This document shows, piece by piece, positions 25,685-37,293 of a DNA stretch of 64,000 nt. The stretch's first letter is position 1. Each line of letters begins with the position of its first letter. Location: assembly GCA_947488655.1 (NCBI GenBank), contig CANKZZ010000005.1, positions 1-64,000 on the forward strand, read 5' to 3'. Both the position numbers and the translations under genes were made by a program. The notes below the pieces were generated by a model. It worked only from the letters and a program-made list of their open reading frames with translations. It was not told the origin of the DNA and searched no databases. This stretch comes from an uncultured Psychroserpens sp. GTDB taxonomy: Bacteria; Bacteroidota; Bacteroidia; Flavobacteriales; Flavobacteriaceae.

Positions 25685-26359
25685 TTAAGTGGTTTTTGTG
25701 ATTCTTTTAATGTCGTTAGAAGTAATTATCACTTCTTTATAATTTGTAGTATTAGCCAAATTAATCATAGCCTGTGCTAGATCATTAGCTTGAGTAATTT
25801 TATATTTTTTTAATTTTCCTATAAATAGTGGTTCAATAATTTTTAAAATAGTTAGCCCTATTTTTTCCAACGTACGTTGTTCTTCTCGGTCACCTCCAAT
25901 TAATGATGGTCTAAAGATGAAAGTATTTTTAATACTCTGTTGCAAAACATCACGTTCCATTTCGCCTTTAGTTTTATTGTAAAATACGCTACTATTGGCA
26001 TTGGCTCCTAATGCTGAAACCACCAGAAAAGTGTCGATATTATTAGCATTGGCTAATTTTGCTGCTGCAACAGGAATCCCATAATCTATCTTCTTATATA
26101 GTTCTTTATCGGGAGTTTTAGACTTGGTAGTACCAATACAGCAGTACACTTCGTCTGCTGTGAAGTTTGATTTAAAATTTTCTAATTCTAATAAATCGCA
26201 AATGTATTGGGTGACTCTATTAGATAATCCTTCTATTTTTGATCGCGAAAATAATTTGATACTTCCATAACGATCATCATTAAGTAATTTTTGAAGTACC
26301 AAACCTCCAGTTAAACCAGAGGCACCTAATATAATTGCTGTTTTTTTCATATTATTCAC
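25685..26359 (-). CDS. NAD(P)H-binding atypical SDR-like oxidoreductase
   Basis: 224 residues. An N-terminal AIILGASGLTGGLVLQKLL gives the GxxGxxG dinucleotide motif. CCIGTTKSK, FLVVSALGANANS and YNKTKGEMERDV are typical of the HTATIP2/NAD(P)-binding family (Y-x3-K present). The start overlaps the end of the TetR gene by 8 bp; an ATG three codons later would remove the overlap. Exact substrate unknown; the operon suggests a quinone or carbonyl. Confidence 0.8.
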   Translation of the reverse strand: MNNMKKTAIILGASGLTGGLVLQKLLNDDRYGSIKLFSRSKIEGLSNRVTQYICDLLELENFKSNFTADEVYCCIGTTKSKTPDKELYKKIDYGIPVAAAKLANANNIDTFLVVSALGANANSSVFYNKTKGEMERDVLQQSIKNTFIFRPSLIGGDREEQRTLEKIGLTILKIIEPLFIGKLKKYKITQANDLAQAMINLANTTNYKEVIITSNDIKRITKTT

Positions 26360-27116: not shown

Positions 27117-27485
27117 TTAATCAATAATTTCACCCTTTTCCTCTGCAACGGTAGTTCCCCAATTAGCAATAGAAAGTAATACAGGTCTTAAGGTTTCTCC
27201 AAAAGGAGTAAGTTGATATTCTACTTTTAAAGGTGGTTTCTTGGTATATACTTTTCGTGTTATCAAACCATCCTTTTCTAGCTGTTTCAACTGTAAACTT
27301 AACGTTCGTTCTGTAATGGTCGAAATTAGTTTATAAAGTTCATTATAGCGTTTTTTTCCATTTAGAAGATATATGAGAATCACGCTTTTCCATTTACCAC
27401 CTATTAATTCCATAGCAACACTTGTAGAGCAAGAAAATTCTTTATCGTTAAATCGTATTACTCTTTTTTTATACTCTACATCCAT
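27117..27485 (-). CDS. HxlR family (DUF24) winged-helix transcriptional regulator
   Basis: 122 residues. SVAMELIGGKWKSVILIYLLNGKKRYNELYKLISTITERTLSLQLKQLEKDGLITRKVY is the diagnostic HxlR core. A Cys at position 19 (FSCSTSV) sits where family members such as YodB, HypR and QorR carry a redox- or electrophile-sensing Cys. It is divergent from a nitroreductase gene, and the intergenic region holds two copies of a 17-bp palindrome. It probably represses itself and the nitroreductase until modified by quinones or similar compounds. Confidence 0.88.
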   Translation of the reverse strand: MDVEYKKRVIRFNDKEFSCSTSVAMELIGGKWKSVILIYLLNGKKRYNELYKLISTITERTLSLQLKQLEKDGLITRKVYTKKPPLKVEYQLTPFGETLRPVLLSIANWGTTVAEEKGEIID

Positions 27486-29352: not shown

Positions 29353-30213
29353 ATGGCAAGAACCATTCTCGAAAATATCGTAATTCAGAAATATAAAGAC
29401 GAAACATTTTTCACGTTTTGTCAATACACAACGATACGTTTTTTCGAAATTGTTTATATCGAAAAAGGCGATGGTACCATAAAAATCAACGGTAAAACGG
29501 TACGGTATTCCGACAATAGTATTTTCGTGTTTATTCCTGATGATGTTTATATTATACAAGCTGAAACACCCACAACTGTAGCAGCTATTAAATTTTTAAA
29601 GAGCTTTTTTAGAAATACATCTTCACAAAATGCAACGCTTCCTGTTAATGATTGGTTTCGAAAAATCGAAGAAATTTTAAATAGCGAAAGTCATCAACTT
29701 CGTGAAATGCATTTTGAAACTGCTTCAGACAGAACACATTTGGTGACTTTAGTAAATATGGTAACTACTGAATATCTACATAAACCATCCAATGATATTT
29801 TCATCATTCAAAATTCTTTATCTGTAATTCTTCATTTAATAGCCAGAAATATTCAGTACATAAATGCTGAAACTATCAAAGAGGTAAAGTCTTCAAAAAT
29901 TCAGCAAATCATAAACTTTATTCACTCTAATATCTACAATCCTGAAGTATTAAGCACCAAAAGCCTAGCTGATGAATTTCATATGGCAGACAATTATATT
30001 AGTGAGTATTTTAAAAAACATACAGACGTGTCTTTAAAAAAATACATTATAAATTATAAATTAAAGTTGGTAGAAACACGATTAAAGTACACAGATGCAC
30101 AAGATTCTGAAATAGCTTTAGAGCTTGGTTTTACAGATTCTAGCCACTTAAATAAAACATTTAAAACCTATAAAGGCATCAGTTTAAGTGCCTTTAAAGC
30201 CAATTTAACTTAG
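29353..30213 (+). CDS. AraC family transcriptional regulator
   Basis: 286 residues. The N-terminal ~100 residues are cupin-like (IVYIEKGDGTIKINGKTVRYSDNSIFVFIPDDVY). The C-terminal ~100 carry the double HTH: LSTKSLADEFHMADNYISEYFKKHTDVSLKKYI and DAQDSEIALELGFTDSSHLNKTFKTYKGISLSAFK. The target promoters are probably the two with the shared 20-bp element at 30224 and 32787; the first starts 10 bp after this gene's stop. The ligand is unknown. Confidence 0.88.
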   Translation: MARTILENIVIQKYKDETFFTFCQYTTIRFFEIVYIEKGDGTIKINGKTVRYSDNSIFVFIPDDVYIIQAETPTTVAAIKFLKSFFRNTSSQNATLPVNDWFRKIEEILNSESHQLREMHFETASDRTHLVTLVNMVTTEYLHKPSNDIFIIQNSLSVILHLIARNIQYINAETIKEVKSSKIQQIINFIHSNIYNPEVLSTKSLADEFHMADNYISEYFKKHTDVSLKKYIINYKLKLVETRLKYTDAQDSEIALELGFTDSSHLNKTFKTYKGISLSAFKANLT

Positions 30214-30223
30214 ATTTTTTCTA

Positions 30224-30293
30224 CAAACCTTGTTTTTTACTAATAACACATTGTTTTCTACCAAAAAAAGCCTTGATGTCTAAAGTAAGTTTG
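30224..30293 (+). promoter_or_regulatory. Putative AraC-activated promoter A (upstream of the crotonase gene)
   Basis: CAAACCTTGTTTTTTACTAA (30224-30243), then 16 bp, then ACCAAAAA (30260-30267), then a -7 box TAAGTTTG (30286-30293). The same three blocks with the same spacings recur at 32787. No -33 TTG lies at the normal distance, which fits a promoter that needs an activator. Confidence 0.65.
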
Positions 30294-30348
30294 TACTGTA
30301 ATTATAACACAACAATATAAAACAGTATTAATTAAAACATTAGAAATC

Positions 30349-31197
30349 ATGGATTACAAAAATTTTCAAACATTTACAGCAAAACAAAACGGAGCAATTT
30401 TAACGGTTGATATCAACTTTGGACCAGTAAACGTACAAGGACAAGAAATGTTAGCAGACTTAAGTAGTTTGTGTTTACGTTTAGAGCGAGATAGAAGTGT
30501 AAATGTGGTCGTTTTTCAATCATCAAATCCTGGCTATTGGGTTTGTCATTACGATACTAATTTACTTAGAGACATGTCTACAGAAGCTGTACCAAGAAAC
30601 GAAGTACAATTGTTAGACTTACAATCGGTTTTAGAACGATTAAGCAATGTGCCACAAGCAACCATCGCAAAAATTGAAGGTTTTGCACGAGGTGGAGGAC
30701 ACGAAATGGCATTAGCATTAGACATGCGATTTGCAGCAAGAGGCAAAGCCAAATTTATGCAAATGGAAGTTGGTATGGGTATTTTACCTTGTGGAGGAGG
30801 AGCATCTCGTATGGCAAGACAAACAGGACTTGGCAAAGCATTAGAAATTATTTTGGGAGCAAGAGATTGGGATGCAGACGAAGCTGAAAAATTCGGAACC
30901 ATCAATAAAGCTTTAGATGCTGATGAGATTGGACCTTATGTAGATGCGTTAGCAGAACGTATCTCTAAATTCCCAGCAGAGTCTATTGAAGCATGTAAAC
31001 GTGCAGTTTATGCCTCTATCGATTTACCAATTAAAGAGGCTTTAAAAGAAGAAGCTTACCAGTTATTTCAAGCAACCAGTAAAACACCAGCAATTAAGCG
31101 TTTTACAATTGCTGATGAAAATGGAGCTCAATTTGACCATGACAATCAAAAGAATTGGGAGTCTATGTTAATAGATCTACAGGAAATTCAATTATAA
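30349..31197 (+). CDS. Enoyl-CoA hydratase/isomerase (crotonase) family protein
   Basis: 282 residues. IAKIEGFARGGGHEMALALDMRFAARGKAKFMQMEVGMGILPCGGGASRMARQTG is the crotonase core with the oxyanion-hole glycines. The usual enoyl-CoA hydratase active-site Glu pair is only partly preserved (EVGMG present), so the reaction cannot be named. There are no other beta-oxidation genes nearby; the neighbours are an AraC regulator, a SnoaL-like protein and a bestrophin, suggesting a stress-linked rather than catabolic role. Confidence 0.8.
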   Translation: MDYKNFQTFTAKQNGAILTVDINFGPVNVQGQEMLADLSSLCLRLERDRSVNVVVFQSSNPGYWVCHYDTNLLRDMSTEAVPRNEVQLLDLQSVLERLSNVPQATIAKIEGFARGGGHEMALALDMRFAARGKAKFMQMEVGMGILPCGGGASRMARQTGLGKALEIILGARDWDADEAEKFGTINKALDADEIGPYVDALAERISKFPAESIEACKRAVYASIDLPIKEALKEEAYQLFQATSKTPAIKRFTIADENGAQFDHDNQKNWESMLIDLQEIQL

Positions 31198-31212
31198 AAA
31201 GACATTATAATT

Positions 31213-31614
31213 ATGAATACGAAACAACATAAACAGACCATTCTCAATTTCTTTGAGCAATTCTCAAAAGCCAATGTTACAGAAGCCTTAACATATTTAG
31301 ATGATGGCATAGTTTGGCAAGCCATGGGAATTAAAGGAGAGTTGCCAATGTCTGGTACAATGGACAAAAAAGCTATTGGCGAGTTAATGACAACCGTAAA
31401 GGCAATGATGCCAAAAGGTTTAAAATTAAAGCCCGTAGGTTGGACTGCTGAAGAGGATAGAGTCGCTGCTGAGTTCATATCCTATGGAACTTTGACCAAT
31501 GGTAAAGTGTATAATAATCCGTATCATTTTTTGTTCCAATTTTTGGATGGAAAAATCATAAAAATTAAAGAGTATATGGACACGTTACACGCAAAATCCA
31601 TATTCATTGATTGA
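31213..31614 (+). CDS. SnoaL/NTF2-like family protein
   Basis: 133 residues with the small alpha+beta cone fold pattern: ILNFFEQFSKANVTEALTYLDDGIVWQAMG at the N-terminus and YHFLFQFLDGKIIKIKEYMDTLHAKSIF at the C-terminus, as in ketosteroid-isomerase-related proteins. It starts 15 bp after the crotonase gene and ends at a strong terminator, so the two form the operon driven by promoter A. No substrate can be assigned. Confidence 0.8.
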   Translation: MNTKQHKQTILNFFEQFSKANVTEALTYLDDGIVWQAMGIKGELPMSGTMDKKAIGELMTTVKAMMPKGLKLKPVGWTAEEDRVAAEFISYGTLTNGKVYNNPYHFLFQFLDGKIIKIKEYMDTLHAKSIFID

Positions 31615-31627
31615 TAGCAATTAATTG

Positions 31628-31653
31628 AAATGCCTCTTCACTGAGGCATTTTT
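31628..31653 (+). terminator. Rho-independent terminator
   Basis: AAATGCCTC pairs with GAGGCATTT around TTCACT, followed by a short T run. It closes the crotonase/SnoaL-like operon. Confidence 0.88.
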
Positions 31654-31686
31654 AGAATAATTCATTTACTAAATTATACTATAAAA

Positions 31687-32766
31687 ATGTACACAAAACC
31701 AAGATATCCAATTTCAGTAGTGTTCAAATGGACCAGAAGATACATTTATGTATTTTTTATAACTGCATTAATCCCTGTTTTACTTTATGAAGTCGCTGGT
31801 TTTAAATGGCTCACTTTACCATGGCAACCTATTGGTTTAATAGGTACAGCACTGGCATTTATTACCGGATTTAAGAACAATGCATCTTATGACCGACAGT
31901 GGGAAGCCAGAAAAATTTATGGAGGTATTGTAAATGCATCAAGATGGTTTACAACAATGGTCAATGATTTTATTTCCAATACAAATACAGATGACCCGAA
32001 AACTGAAACCGAACTTTTTAAAATTAGAAAAGCAATGGTTTTACGTCATGTCGCCTGGATGAGTGCCTTAAGGCATGCGCTACGACAAAAGAAAACGTGG
32101 GAAACAGCTAAAACAAATAAATCTGATCAAGAGCATATGAAACAAATTAAGGTGCCAGAATTCGAAAATTCGCTATCAGATGAGTTAGAAGGCTATTTAC
32201 CTGTAGATGAGAAGACGAAGATACTTTCAAAAACAAATAAACAAACTGCTGTATTAAATTTTCAGTCTAAGCACATTGCACAATTAGCTTCAGCAGAATT
32301 GATTGATAACTTTAGGCATGTAGAATTTCAAAATGTGATAGGTGAATTATTTACTTTACAAGGAAAAGCAGAACGCATTAAAAACTTTCCTTATCCCAGA
32401 CAATTTGCCACTTTAAATACTTATTTCATATGGATTTTTATTCTGATTATGCCTTTCGGATTTATGCGTCAGTTTGATTTAACTGCTCAATCATTAATAG
32501 CTTCAGGAGTGTCAAATCTGTATTTTGGGTTTCTTGTTGAGCATTTTGTGTGGTTATCCATTCCGTTTAGTGTTATTATATCGTGGATATTTTTTGCGAT
32601 GGAACGAGTAGGCGACACTTCGGAAAATCCGTTTGAAGGTATGGGTAACGATGTGCCAATTTCTACCATATCTAGAGCTATAGAAATTGATATAAGAGAG
32701 ATGATTGATGATGACTTAACGCTCATTCCGATGCCACTTCCAGAGTATCAAAATACGCAGATGTAA
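31687..32766 (+). CDS. Bestrophin family ion channel (UPF0187)
   Basis: 359 residues. There are membrane segments near 22-45 (YVFFITALIPVLLYEVAGF), 48-65 and two after residue 235 (YFIWIFILIMPFGFMRQFDL; FVWLSIPFSVIISWIFFAME). The bestrophin landmarks are SYDRQWEARKIYGGIVNASR and the C-terminal MERVGDTSENPFEGMGNDVPISTISRAIEIDIREM. Bacterial members form pentameric cation- or anion-conducting channels. It may be transcribed from its own weak promoter, since a terminator precedes it. Confidence 0.88.
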   Translation: MYTKPRYPISVVFKWTRRYIYVFFITALIPVLLYEVAGFKWLTLPWQPIGLIGTALAFITGFKNNASYDRQWEARKIYGGIVNASRWFTTMVNDFISNTNTDDPKTETELFKIRKAMVLRHVAWMSALRHALRQKKTWETAKTNKSDQEHMKQIKVPEFENSLSDELEGYLPVDEKTKILSKTNKQTAVLNFQSKHIAQLASAELIDNFRHVEFQNVIGELFTLQGKAERIKNFPYPRQFATLNTYFIWIFILIMPFGFMRQFDLTAQSLIASGVSNLYFGFLVEHFVWLSIPFSVIISWIFFAMERVGDTSENPFEGMGNDVPISTISRAIEIDIREMIDDDLTLIPMPLPEYQNTQM

Positions 32767-32786
32767 ATTTTTAACACTCAATTTTT

Positions 32787-32856
32787 CAAACCTTGTTTTT
32801 TACTAAAACTACCCTTTTTAATACCAAAAACTAGCTTCTGTTTAGCTTTAAATTTG
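32787..32856 (+). promoter_or_regulatory. Putative AraC-activated promoter B (upstream of the 2OG oxygenase gene)
   Basis: CAAACCTTGTTTTTTACTAA (32787-32806), 16 bp, ACCAAAAA (32823-32830) and a -7 box TAAATTTG (32849-32856). The 20-bp block is identical to promoter A, and both internal distances (36 and 62 bp from block start) are the same. Confidence 0.65.
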
Positions 32857-32890
32857 TATTAAATAATCATAAAATTTTAAAAAAAATATC

Positions 32891-33856
32891 ATGAAAACAA
32901 TAACAAATACAAATGCACTTGCAGAAGCTCGTGCTCTAGAAGTACCATCAAGAGAATTATCATTAAGACGCGACCCATCAGTTTCAAAATTTTGGAACGA
33001 TAATCGTAAATTATTAGAAGCTGCTTGGGCTGAGTGGGAACTAGAAAACAAAGACCATTTATTACTACCAGATGAAAGTTTACTTGATCCTAAATTACGA
33101 AAAGCGATTAACGACGCTTGGGAAAACCCAGAAAACGAAACTGCTGTTGCCGATTTATGGGAAGAAATTATTCCTGGTGTTTATGAAACACAGTTTTTTG
33201 ATTTAGAACGTTTAGCCGATTTTCGTAAGTATCTAGAAGATGCTGTAAATTCAGAAATTCCAAAACGTGCACCTTACGGAATTCAATTAAATCGTTATGG
33301 AATGATGTTAGATCCACGCTCAGAAGGACATTTGGCTGCACCAAGTTTTCAAGCATTTTATGATGCTATTATGGACAGATATATGCGTCCGATTGCACGA
33401 TTATTATTAGGAACTTATGGTTACGATAATCAGACTTTTGGATTTTCAATACAATATAATCCTGATAAAGACAAAGATCTGCATGCACATACAGATGCTT
33501 CATCAGCTACCTTAAATATAAACATTAACTTACCAGATGAAGCATTTACAGGTTCCATTGTAGATTTCTATGATAAAGCTTCAGGTAAAACGGTACAAAC
33601 TAAGTTCGAACCTGGTAAAGCCATCATTCACAGAGGTAATGTACCACACGCAACACACCCAATTATCAGTGGACAACGTAGTAATTTAGTCGTTTGGTTA
33701 TATGGAGACCAGATGCAAATACCACGAGGAAACCAAAGCAGCTATGGTAATATAGGCAGTGATAGTACCATCAAAGATATTGCATTAGCAAATGTCACAG
33801 CTCGTCAACGATGGAGTCTACCAGATAGTCCAAAAGATACCGTTGCACCATTTTAA
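32891..33856 (+). CDS. 2-oxoglutarate/Fe(II)-dependent dioxygenase (prolyl 4-hydroxylase-like)
   Basis: 321 residues. The metal triad is visible as H-x-D in DLHAHTDASSATLNININL and the distal His in GKAIIHRGNVPHATHPIISGQRSNLVVWLYGD, with the 2-oxoglutarate-binding Arg in GQRSN. It should hydroxylate a protein or small molecule using oxygen and 2-oxoglutarate. It is preceded by the second copy of the putative AraC site, so it is likely co-regulated with the crotonase/SnoaL-like operon. Confidence 0.82.
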   Translation: MKTITNTNALAEARALEVPSRELSLRRDPSVSKFWNDNRKLLEAAWAEWELENKDHLLLPDESLLDPKLRKAINDAWENPENETAVADLWEEIIPGVYETQFFDLERLADFRKYLEDAVNSEIPKRAPYGIQLNRYGMMLDPRSEGHLAAPSFQAFYDAIMDRYMRPIARLLLGTYGYDNQTFGFSIQYNPDKDKDLHAHTDASSATLNININLPDEAFTGSIVDFYDKASGKTVQTKFEPGKAIIHRGNVPHATHPIISGQRSNLVVWLYGDQMQIPRGNQSSYGNIGSDSTIKDIALANVTARQRWSLPDSPKDTVAPF

Positions 33857-33982: not shown

Positions 33983-34780
33983 ATGATAACCATATTAATA
34001 ACAGGAAGTACGGACGGAATCGGAAAACTTACTGCTTTAAAATTAGCCAAAGAAGGTCACAAAGTTTATATTCACGGTCGAAGTGAAGCTAAAGTAAATT
34101 CAGTCATCAATGAATTAAAAGACGCTTCAAACAATAAGAACATAAAAGGTTTTGTTGCTGATTTTTCAGATATCAATGCTGTAAAAAAAATGGCTAAACA
34201 AATTAAAAATGACGTTGAAAAACTCGATATTCTCATAAATAATGCTGGTATTTACAAAACCACATCAAGCAAAACTAAAGATGGATTAGATATAAGAATG
34301 GCAGTGAATTACTTGGCGCCTTTTGTTTTAACAGAGAAAATTATTTCTGTGTTGGAATTAGGTTCAGAAGCCAGAATTATCAATTTAAGTTCGGCAGCAC
34401 AATCTACGGTTCAAAAAAGTGTTTTAACTGGAGATGCTACTGTAAATGATAGCGAAAGCTATGCACAGAGTAAATTGGCATTAACTATGTGGTCGTTCAA
34501 CTTTGCTAAAAATCATCCAAATTTAGTAACGATAGCTGTAAATCCTGGTTCTTTGTTGAATACAAAAATGGCCAAAGAAGCGTATGGGCAACATTGGTCA
34601 CCTGCAGAAAAGGGTGTGGACATTCTTTATGACTTGGCAGTGTCAGAACGTCACAAAAACCAATCAGGCACATATTTTGACAACGATAGAGGAAGTTACA
34701 ACAATGCACATCCAGATGCATATAATGACGATAAAATTAAATTATTACTAACTTTAACAGAATCCATCATTAACAACTAG
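33983..34780 (+). CDS. SDR family NAD(P)-dependent oxidoreductase
   Basis: 265 residues from the ATG at 33983; a longer in-frame start at 33899 would translate the palindromic repeat and is rejected. TILITGSTDGIGKLTALKLA is the TGxxxGIG motif, [11 protein letters not shown] the NNAG motif, INLSSAAQS the Ser and ESYAQSKLAL the Y-x3-K. It is a complete classical SDR resembling retinol-dehydrogenase/WW-oxidoreductase types. It lies between the 2OG oxygenase and the KefF-like gene. Confidence 0.88.
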   Translation: MITILITGSTDGIGKLTALKLAKEGHKVYIHGRSEAKVNSVINELKDASNNKNIKGFVADFSDINAVKKMAKQIKNDVEKLDILINNAGIYKTTSSKTKDGLDIRMAVNYLAPFVLTEKIISVLELGSEARIINLSSAAQSTVQKSVLTGDATVNDSESYAQSKLALTMWSFNFAKNHPNLVTIAVNPGSLLNTKMAKEAYGQHWSPAEKGVDILYDLAVSERHKNQSGTYFDNDRGSYNNAHPDAYNDDKIKLLLTLTESIINN

Positions 34781-34807: not shown

Positions 34808-35401
34808 ATGAAAAAAGTACTTATCCTTTTTGCACATCCTAAGTTCGAAAAATCTAAGGTAAATGCAGCTTTAATAGAAAGATTAAAAGATAAGGCTCAT
34901 GTGACATTTCATGACTTATATGAGCATTACCCCAACTTTCATATTGATGTGCAACACGAACAAGAATTGTTAATGCAGCATGATATAATCATTTGGCATC
35001 ATCCTCTTTACTGGTATAGTAGTCCTGCAATTTTAAAACAATGGAAAGATTTGGTTTTAGAATTTAATTGGGCTTATGGACCAAACGGAAAAGTATTACA
35101 TGAAAAAACTATTTTTAACGTTATTACAACTGGTGGTTCGAGAGAAGTGTACTGTAGTGAAGGCTATAACACTTTTACTATTAATGAGTTTTTGAGACCT
35201 TTTGAGCAAACAGCAAAACTTTGTGGTATGAACTATTTACCACCATTTGCAGTAATGGGAACATATCAATTAACAAATGAAGACCTTCTTAATTACGCTA
35301 ATCAATACGAAAGGCTTATAGATTTACTTCAGGGCGATTTTAACGCAACGCAGCTATCTAGTTGTTTTTTTCTTAACGATTTAGAAATTTTATCTGTTTA
35401 A
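34808..35401 (+). CDS. KefF-like NAD(P)H-dependent quinone oxidoreductase
   Basis: 197 residues with a flavodoxin-like fold: KVLILFAHPKFEKSKVNAALIERL, DIIIWHHPLYWYSSPAILKQWKDLVLEFNWAYG and TTGGSREVYC, as in KefF/KefG/NQO-type enzymes. Its stop lies 2 bp before the start of the antiporter gene, exactly as kefF precedes kefC. It should activate the antiporter and reduce quinones. Confidence 0.88.
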   Translation: MKKVLILFAHPKFEKSKVNAALIERLKDKAHVTFHDLYEHYPNFHIDVQHEQELLMQHDIIIWHHPLYWYSSPAILKQWKDLVLEFNWAYGPNGKVLHEKTIFNVITTGGSREVYCSEGYNTFTINEFLRPFEQTAKLCGMNYLPPFAVMGTYQLTNEDLLNYANQYERLIDLLQGDFNATQLSSCFFLNDLEILSV

Positions 35402-35403
35402 TT

Positions 35404-37293
35404 ATGACTGGAAGTATACTTTTTGAGGCTATTGTTTTTCTCGTTGGTGCCATTTTTTGTGTGTCTATAGCTAAGCGACTCGGTTTAAGTTCTGTCATAG
35501 GTTACTTGTTAGCAGGAGTTCTAATTGGACCTTATGTTTTAGGATTTATTGGTAATGAAGGTGAAGATATTTTGCATTTTGCAGAGTTTGGTGTTGTTAT
35601 GATGTTATTCCTAATTGGTTTAGAAATTGAACCAAAAAACTTTTGGAATATGCGTAAAGCTATATTTGGTATGGGAGGAATACAAGTTGGTGCCACCATG
35701 CTATTATCATATTTACTTTTTGTTTTAATAGGTTTTGAGTGGAAAGTAGCTTTAGTTATTTCTATGGCAGTGGCTTTATCATCTACAGCAATTGCCATGC
35801 AAACAATTAAAGAAAAAGGATTAATGACGACAACCTTTGGCACATCATCATTTGCCATATTATTATTTCAAGATATTATTGTCATATTTATGCTCGGTTT
35901 TATTCCTTTACTAGCTAATCCTAACGAGGCTATAACGTCTGGCAATATTGACGAACAAACAAATTTATTAGAGAGCTTACCAATTGGTTTTCAAACCTTA
36001 GCCATATTATTTTCGGTTGGTTTAGTTATAGTCGCTGGTCGCTATTTAATAGTACCAATGTTAAGAAAAGTGGCTAAAACAGACGTTAGAGAGCTATTAA
36101 TTGCAGCAGCTTTTTTAATCGTTTGCGGAATTTCATTTATTATGGAGTATGTAGGTATAAGTCCAGCTTTAGGAGCATTTTTGGGTGGAGTCGTGCTCTC
36201 AAATAGCGAATTTAAGCACGAATTAGAAAGCACACTAGAACCTTTTAAAAATTTACTTTTAGGTTTATTTTTTATGGCAGTTGGCGCTTCCATAAATTTT
36301 ATTGTAATTGCTAAAAGTCCGTTTACTATTATAGGTGTTTTAATTGCAATAATTGCATTAAAAGGAATTGTCCTATTTATAACAGGTCATATATTTAAAT
36401 TAAAATTAGACCAAAAATTACTGCTCACTTTTAGTTTAGCACAAATTGGAGAGTTTGCTTTTGTTTTATTATCATTTGCCTTTGGATTAAATATATTAGA
36501 ACAAGACCAAATGGATATGCTGTTAGTAATTACTGCACTAAGCATGTCGATAACACCTATAATTAGTATTATAAATGAGCGATTTATTTTGCCTAAAATA
36601 GGCACAAAAGAATCGATAAAACGCCCAATGGATCATATTGCAAAATCGCAAAAAGTAATTCTCGTTGGTTTTGGTCACTTTGGGAGTACAATTGGTCGTT
36701 TCTTACGATCTCATGGTGTTGAAGCTACAATATTAGACTTTGATTCTAATCGTGTAGATTTTCTTCGGAAAATGGGATTTGAAGTCTACTATGGAGATGC
36801 CACACGTCTCGATCTTTTAGAAGCTGCAGGCATTGCAGAAGCCAAAATAATTATTTGTGCCACAAATAGGTTATCTGTATCAAAGGCCATAAATAAAATA
36901 GTAAAAGAAAAATATCCTCATGTAGAATTAATGATACGCACTAAAAATCGTTACGACGCTTATGAACTGCTTAATCTAGGTAACGAAAACATTTATCGCG
37001 AATCTTTAGAAACGTCATTAAAACTTGCTAAAGATGTATTGAGCAAGATGGGTTTTAGAAAATATACATTAAATAGGCAAGTTGAAAATTTCATTAAATA
37101 TGATGAGGATAGTTTAAGGCGATTAGCCTCAGAACCTAAAAGAGAAGAAGATTATATTTTTAAGGCTAAACAAGAATTAGAGCAACAAGAAAAGTATTTA
37201 GACGAAGACTTTAAAAGAGGTGTTGTAGAATTTGATAATCATTGGGATAGTGAGCACATTAAAAAGGTTCTAGAGAAAACTAAAAACCAATAA
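35404..37293 (+). CDS. CPA2 monovalent cation:proton antiporter with RCK domain (KefB/KefC-like)
   Basis: 629 residues. About 12 membrane segments fill residues 1-390 (starting LFEAIVFLVGAIFCVSIAKRLGLSSVIGYLLAGVLIGPYVLG). An RCK_N/TrkA domain follows at ~415-540: VILVGFGHFGSTIGRFLRSHGVEATILDFDSNRVDFLRKMGFEVYYGDATRLDLLEAAG. In Kef systems, binding of glutathione adducts opens potassium efflux and acidifies the cytoplasm to protect against electrophiles. Translationally coupled to the KefF-like gene. It carries an internal TTTCTTCGGAAA motif at 36760. Confidence 0.9.
   Translation: MTGSILFEAIVFLVGAIFCVSIAKRLGLSSVIGYLLAGVLIGPYVLGFIGNEGEDILHFAEFGVVMMLFLIGLEIEPKNFWNMRKAIFGMGGIQVGATMLLSYLLFVLIGFEWKVALVISMAVALSSTAIAMQTIKEKGLMTTTFGTSSFAILLFQDIIVIFMLGFIPLLANPNEAITSGNIDEQTNLLESLPIGFQTLAILFSVGLVIVAGRYLIVPMLRKVAKTDVRELLIAAAFLIVCGISFIMEYVGISPALGAFLGGVVLSNSEFKHELESTLEPFKNLLLGLFFMAVGASINFIVIAKSPFTIIGVLIAIIALKGIVLFITGHIFKLKLDQKLLLTFSLAQIGEFAFVLLSFAFGLNILEQDQMDMLLVITALSMSITPIISIINERFILPKIGTKESIKRPMDHIAKSQKVILVGFGHFGSTIGRFLRSHGVEATILDFDSNRVDFLRKMGFEVYYGDATRLDLLEAAGIAEAKIIICATNRLSVSKAINKIVKEKYPHVELMIRTKNRYDAYELLNLGNENIYRESLETSLKLAKDVLSKMGFRKYTLNRQVENFIKYDEDSLRRLASEPKREEDYIFKAKQELEQQEKYLDEDFKRGVVEFDNHWDSEHIKKVLEKTKNQ

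Follow-up and report, generated by a model that had tools for sequence, protein, structure and literature searches.

The window analysed here, a 64,000-nucleotide stretch of DNA from an uncultured Psychroserpens sp. (contig CANKZZ010000005.1), contains a gene for an AraC-type regulator and, downstream of it, two promoters that share the same element. Paired sites in these promoters, conserved in many marine flavobacteria, very probably allow the AraC protein to activate two adjacent groups of enzyme genes jointly. One group begins with a crotonase-superfamily gene and the other with a 2-oxoglutarate/Fe(II) oxygenase-like (2OG) gene. If this is true, a specific regulator, its operator and its target set would be in hand for a group of marine bacteria, and two unexplained enzymes, the crotonase and the 2OG oxygenase, would be tied to one signal. 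It would also define a promoter class that seemingly needs a -7 box and an activator alone, and the natural series of kept, missing and re-aimed operators would make the DNA specificity of AraC and the turnover of its regulon testable.

An earlier sequence-only reading had pointed to an identical 20-mer, CAAACCTTGTTTTTTACTAA, in the two promoters. It was confirmed that the 20-mer occurs at 30224-30243 and 32787-32806 on the + strand with 0 mismatches, and nowhere else in the window at up to 3 mismatches. In 100 shuffles the mean number of matches was 0.11, and two or more were found in 2 of the 100. The further layout given in that reading was also found to be right: ACCAAAAA begins at 30260 and 32823, 36 bp from each block start; a TAnnTTTG box stands at +62 of each block (TAAGTTTG at 30286 and TAAATTTG at 32849); the AraC open reading frame (ORF), 29353-30213, stops 10 bp ahead of the first copy; and neither promoter has a -33 TTG, with none at a distance of 15-29 bp ahead of the TA in either -7 box. 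The genome search that it had proposed was run, and the composite pattern at up to 3 mismatches was found in exactly 2 places, with 0 for the reversed-pattern control. A sequence model of 79 positions (R1) was built from 31 sites, both window copies included. Of 7589 candidates that a first look gave in the 3.6-Mb genome, 150 were scored with it. The window copies reached 67.3 and 58.0 bits and the next of the 49 listed matches 15.7 bits. Within the reach of the search, these two promoters would make up the whole regulon of the genome. Only one AraC protein was found in the genome at E<=1e-30.

Each 20-mer holds one of two direct-repeat half-sites that lie 21 bp apart, a feature missed in the sequence-only reading. 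In a gapless alignment of the 31 sites (79 columns) the distal half-site has the consensus ACCTTnTTTTTTACnAA and its proximal partner is less strict, and the distance from ACCT to the TAnnTTTG -7 box is 59 bp. The two operators of the window are made up as follows.

30227..30243, + strand: operator 1, distal half-site ACCTTGTTTTTTACTAA, about -71 to -55
30248..30264, + strand: operator 1, proximal half-site ACATTGTTTTCTACCAA, about -50 to -34, with a 21-bp offset from the distal one and 14 of 17 positions alike
30286..30293, + strand: operator 1, -7 box TAAGTTTG, predicted transcription start near 30298
32790..32806, + strand: operator 2, distal half-site ACCTTGTTTTTTACTAA
32811..32827, + strand: operator 2, proximal half-site ACCCTTTTTAATACCAA, alike with the distal one at 12 of 17 positions
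32849..32856, + strand: operator 2, -7 box TAAATTTG, predicted transcription start near 32861

These positions were counted with the -7 box as -12 to -5, the start lying 12 bp after the T of TAnnTTTG, as in PMC6847099. When columns 5-21 were compared with the columns 21 further, identity was 74%; it was 34% with the proximal columns permuted, and 0 of 2000 permutations gave a value as high. The same test at an offset of 18 gave 60%, which is put down to T runs.

A search with the AraC protein gave 49 loci, of which 48 were treated as orthologs (58-95% identity); the remaining one (L051, a 26% match) was left out of all counts. The 48 loci and the window were scanned on both strands with a threshold 1 bit above the best reversed-sequence score of 13.9. 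This gave 101 elements, all of them on the + strand, in the sense direction. TAnnTTTG is present at +59 in 98 of the 101, and a TTG 15-29 bp before the TA in just 2. The box agrees with that of sigma-A promoters of Bacteroidota, described for F. johnsoniae and F. psychrophilum as TAnnTTTG at -12 to -5 in PMC6847099 and PMC9723704. The absence of a -33 TTG stands as an observation and is weak evidence taken alone, since the -33 motif is called 'much less evident' at ordinary F. johnsoniae promoters in PMC6847099. In 32 species with the AraC-crotonase layout (L030 and L048 dropped; L044 is unlabelled), identity to the window averages 88% in the core of the element, 63% in its non-core part and 39% at fourfold third positions of AraC, and the core is more conserved than the non-core in 32 of 32 species. 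Judged by this comparison, the element is under selection.

The element is closely tied to the AraC gene. In 45 of the 48 loci, a copy that has at most 1 mismatch and keeps the distance from ACCT to TAnnTTTG at exactly 59 bp is found no more than 250 bp 3' of where AraC stops; in L048, one of the 45, the AraC frame is broken and the distance was taken from its stop. The three exceptions are L030, with the element further downstream (7341), L027, with a damaged -7 box, and L047, with a degraded form. Elements scoring 37.9 bits or more turned up in 16 of 249 family genomes, the same 16 that encode an AraC protein with 49% identity or more. At the level of the order, 296 genomes were searched and 9 had matches; six of the 9 were not part of the family draw, and three of these six, G317, G441 and G250, scored 49.2, 43.4 and 37.4 bits and hold AraC at 48-57%. 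Several points weigh against the proposed regulon. The cut-offs of 37.9 bits and 49% were chosen after the lists had been seen, the next weaker element being at 36.0 bits; some of the sites that trained the sequence model lie next to AraC; and genomes that are related do not count as independent cases. Matches of 24.5-36.0 bits occur in 4 of the 249 genomes without a close ortholog (G063, G069, G177 and G180), three of which have a distant AraC relative (34-38%) and one of which, G069, has none at E<=1e-20. In the order draw, G516 has 25.6 bits with only distant AraC relatives (31-32%), and G427 and G353 have 22.8 and 22.2 bits. The proximal half-site of operator 2 matches its distal one at only 12 of 17 positions. 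The fold prediction for the AraC protein counts on the same side, its mean predicted local distance difference test value of 49.2, like the 36.8 of the 2OG protein, being too poor to use.

The genes that follow the element form a narrow set. The next gene is a crotonase in 35 cases, 2OG in 35, a nitroreductase in 20, a zinc-type quinone-oxidoreductase-like gene in 3 and a bestrophin in 3, which makes 96 of the 101, and 5 are unlabelled. Where 2OG lies 20-36 bp behind the crotonase, a second element is lacking (5 of 5); where it lies more than 600 bp behind, it has an element of its own in 24 of 25. The exception, L029, has 2OG 24 bp behind an element-bearing bestrophin gene. In the 11 loci with 2OG and no crotonase, there are 10 labelled 2OG elements, and in L025 an unlabelled element stands directly before 2OG. 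This distribution fits operon logic. The two enzyme functions had been described as not normally linked, which does not hold in this lineage: both genes lie at most 6 kb downstream of AraC in 30 of the 48 loci, and they are habitual neighbours.

Genomes in which the targets lie away from AraC, or AraC is missing, are a further test of the tie. In G317 and G441, 2OG is on a different contig from AraC, yet the element is present, with profile scores of 38.3 (G317, where the -7 box reads TAACTTTA) and 48.0 (G441). In G250, which belongs to another family, an element directly follows AraC (53%), and a SnoaL-like/crotonase locus 362 kb from AraC carries another. G091 and G237 have the 2OG gene (85% and 72-74%), and in them no AraC at E<=1e-20 and no element was found. 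An AraC regulon of both promoters, as first proposed from the sequence, is thus strongly supported by comparison, through the element beside AraC in 45 of 48 loci, the co-occurrence over 249 genomes, and the detached-target and AraC-absent cases. G091 (L121) also shows a nitroreductase-cupin-2OG-SDR-KefF series (SDR, short-chain dehydrogenase/reductase) next to which lies a divergent HxlR homolog; the regulator may have been exchanged here. At L027:6886-6964 both half-sites are intact, the -7 box is damaged and the next quinone-oxidoreductase-like ORF is short (99 aa), so that this could perhaps be a decaying promoter.

With considerable confidence, we propose that AraC acts by class II-like activation, binding in tandem at the two promoters and co-inducing both operons. 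AraC would bind as two tandem monomers, one per 17-bp half-site, each reading ACC in one major groove and TAC about one turn further. Counted from the predicted start, the proximal half-site would lie at -50 to -34, beside the -33 region. The monomer bound there would abut that region and recruit RNA polymerase to the TAnnTTTG box without a -33 element. One signal, sensed by the cupin-like N-terminal domain of AraC, could then induce both operon 1 (crotonase-SnoaL) and operon 2 (2OG oxygenase-SDR, perhaps with KefF-KefC). We infer binding, activation rather than repression, and the transcription starts from these features; in particular, it is the position of the operator that suggests an activator.

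Comparable arrangements are known. For the Pm promoter of the TOL plasmid, which depends on the AraC/XylS-family activator XylS, PMC5481539 describes a pair of direct repeats; each repeat has two boxes, which are contacted by two helix-turn-helix motifs. The half-sites here are likewise direct repeats of two boxes, but read ACC-N8-TAC instead of TGCA-N6-GGTA and are combined with a Bacteroidota -7 box and with two operons side by side. For MtlR at the mannitol promoter PmtlE of Pseudomonas fluorescens, PMC4514859 places two blocks of 15 bp at -72 to -58 and -50 to -36, close to the -71 to -55 and -50 to -34 predicted here, whereas the sequence and the phylum are different. Both copies share the TAnnTTTG -7 box with Bacteroidota sigma-A promoters and differ from them in that AraC-type half-sites fill the region upstream of -33. 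The switch is a new example of an ordinary bacterial type. No description of this regulon was found among the titles and abstract openings of the literature searched, and it may be published elsewhere.

It is unlikely that AraC binds these sites as a repressor or toggles between repression and activation. The position of the sites taken alone would be compatible with it, but the half-sites are both located upstream of the -33 region, clear of the -7 box, 98 of 101 elements have TAnnTTTG at the constant 59 bp, as expected for a contact with RNA polymerase, and XylS and MtlR activate from comparable positions (PMC5481539, PMC4514859). There is still less to be said for another regulator of the neighbourhood as the protein that binds the element. 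An HxlR-type gene at 27117 lies about 2.7 kb from operator 1, a TetR-type gene lies at 26352, and an HxlR homolog is found in 18 of the 48 loci. However, 30 of the 48 AraC loci show no HxlR homolog while the element is present in 45, G091 and G237 hold an HxlR homolog and 2OG without AraC and no element was found in them, and direct repeats suit AraC monomers. There is a negligible chance that both copies go back to a recent duplication of a promoter fragment or are general promoter sequence without a specific regulator, and recent duplication is ruled out: the 20-mer is indeed identical in both copies and T-rich, but the following 16 bp agree at just 8 positions, copy 2 shares 72 of 79 positions with the L043 promoter of 2OG but 51 of 79 with copy 1, the genome has just 2 strong matches, the element is kept where fourfold sites are down to 39% on average, and it tracks the AraC gene in presence and absence.

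A paralog with a different half-site adds somewhat to the interest of the AraC regulon. The 20 nitroreductase elements (for example L006:4295, L014:2666, L020:2141, L035:3222 and L044:479) have the same architecture with a TTT(G/A)TAC half-site. Just ahead of TAC, all 20 of them have G or A, and T stands there in 76 of the 81 other elements. Of the 20 loci concerned, 12 were seen to contain a divergent AraC paralog (about 38% identity). In G180 only the paralogous AraC was found (36% identical to the window protein and 66-79% to the 13 other paralogs), and there the nitroreductase and 2OG promoters both read TTTGTAC, the paralog type, in the distal half-site. Both helix-turn-helix motifs set the paralogs (13 in the loci and that of G180) apart from the orthologs. 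Residue 214, in the first motif, is N in 14 of 14 orthologs compared and T in 14 of 14 paralogs; residues 212 and 263 vary among distant orthologs too. Judged by MarA, residue 214 would touch DNA bases. It could tentatively be proposed that two paralogous AraC activators use the same 21-bp repeat and 59-bp spacing with different bases (TTTTTTAC versus TTT(G/A)TAC), that they split a detoxification regulon and exchange targets by point changes in the half-site, and that residue 214 is the main determinant of specificity. A strict base code is contradicted by the 2OG elements of L034, L036, L037 and L039, which have A, and of L026, which has C, in loci that hold the ortholog, and by the presence of the paralog gene in just 12 of the 20 nitroreductase-element loci. 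Because five 2OG elements break the code, this partition between paralogs is judged somewhat less probable.

The genes around the two operators and a stem-loop between them are the following.

29353..30213, + strand: AraC-type regulator, 286 aa; Pfam HTH_18 55.4 bits (cut-off 33.6), HTH_AraC 31.7 (26.6), AraC_binding 28.4 (21.1)
30349..31197, + strand: crotonase superfamily, 282 aa, first in operon 1; Pfam ECH_1 101.8 bits
31213..31614, + strand: SnoaL-like, 133 aa, second in operon 1; Pfam SnoaL_2 34.4 bits (cut-off 27)
31627..31652, + strand: T-run stem-loop; folding of the RNA of 31600-31690 gave z -4.28, a value reached by 0 of 200 shuffles
31687..32766, + strand: bestrophin-like channel, between both operators; Pfam Bestrophin_2 160.7 bits
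32891..33856, + strand: 2-oxoglutarate/Fe(II) oxygenase-like, 321 aa, first in operon 2; triad residues and 6ax6 match
33983..34780, + strand: SDR oxidoreductase; Pfam adh_short 108.3 bits
34808-35401, + strand: KefF-like; Flavodoxin_2 167 bits, KefF model 203.8 bits, just under the cut-off of 210
35404-37293, + strand: KefC/KefB-like, from the ORF sequence

The C-terminus of the AraC protein is a double helix-turn-helix DNA-binding domain, with HTH_18 and HTH_AraC above cut-off, and its profile matches SoxS and MarA in PDB. The N-terminus is a cupin-like ligand-binding domain (residues 24-90, AraC_binding above cut-off). C23 is invariant across 14 aligned orthologs; it would suit a reactive signal and proves nothing. 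The stem-loop is not among the 2 sites of a terminator scan. Operon 1 probably ends there, and the two elements would therefore head two transcription units. In the profile scan of loci and window no element was found before the bestrophin-like gene of the window. The SDR gene probably belongs to operon 2, and an SDR gene follows within 2.5 kb of 2OG in 40 of the 41 loci that hold 2OG. The KefF-like and KefC-like genes (34808-37293) are perhaps part of it too; the name KefC is our assumption from the ORF sequence.

Enoyl-CoA hydratase proper has two catalytic glutamates. Compared with 3 hydratases, the window crotonase keeps the Glu of the QxE motif, and the earlier region reads RGKA with an extra residue. 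It is closest to 3h0u and 3gkb and may have an activity other than that of enoyl-CoA hydratase. The 2-oxoglutarate/Fe(II) dioxygenase motif is an HxD...H iron triad with a distal Arg. The product of 32891-33856, a putative oxygenase, carries it as H200-T201-D202, H253 and R263, which are invariant in 8 aligned orthologs, as are H247 and H256. It matches the lysyl hydroxylase domain 6ax6 (E 1.3e-5), and its Pfam OGFOD2-like score of 22.3 bits is under the cut-off of 31. The signal can be guessed at as perhaps a reactive small molecule (an electrophile, quinone or xenobiotic). A role in defence against such molecules is suggested because the neighbours are nitroreductase, quinone-oxidoreductase-like, SDR, KefF-like and HxlR genes; we put it at slightly under an even chance, the main alternative being a catabolic pathway.

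A reading of the core of the element as an RNA leader is ruled out, the core being upstream of the predicted start, and the two predicted leaders of the window fold no better than shuffles. A sigma-70 promoter scan, which is not meant for this phylum, gave 19 sites against a shuffle mean of 27.9. Some features of the leaders were noticed by eye. In 2OG leaders, for example those of L006, L015, L022 and L027, there is a stem of the form ATAGC-AGTA-GCTAT or ATAAC-AGTA-GTTAT, with both sides changed, which is absent from the 2OG leader of the window. Many of the leaders behind crotonase elements in L003-L050 have an inverted repeat near the predicted start, CTGT-N7-ACAG or GTGT-N7-ACAC depending on the species. 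Its arms look to change together and are mismatched in the window and some relatives; this repeat could be a second operator.

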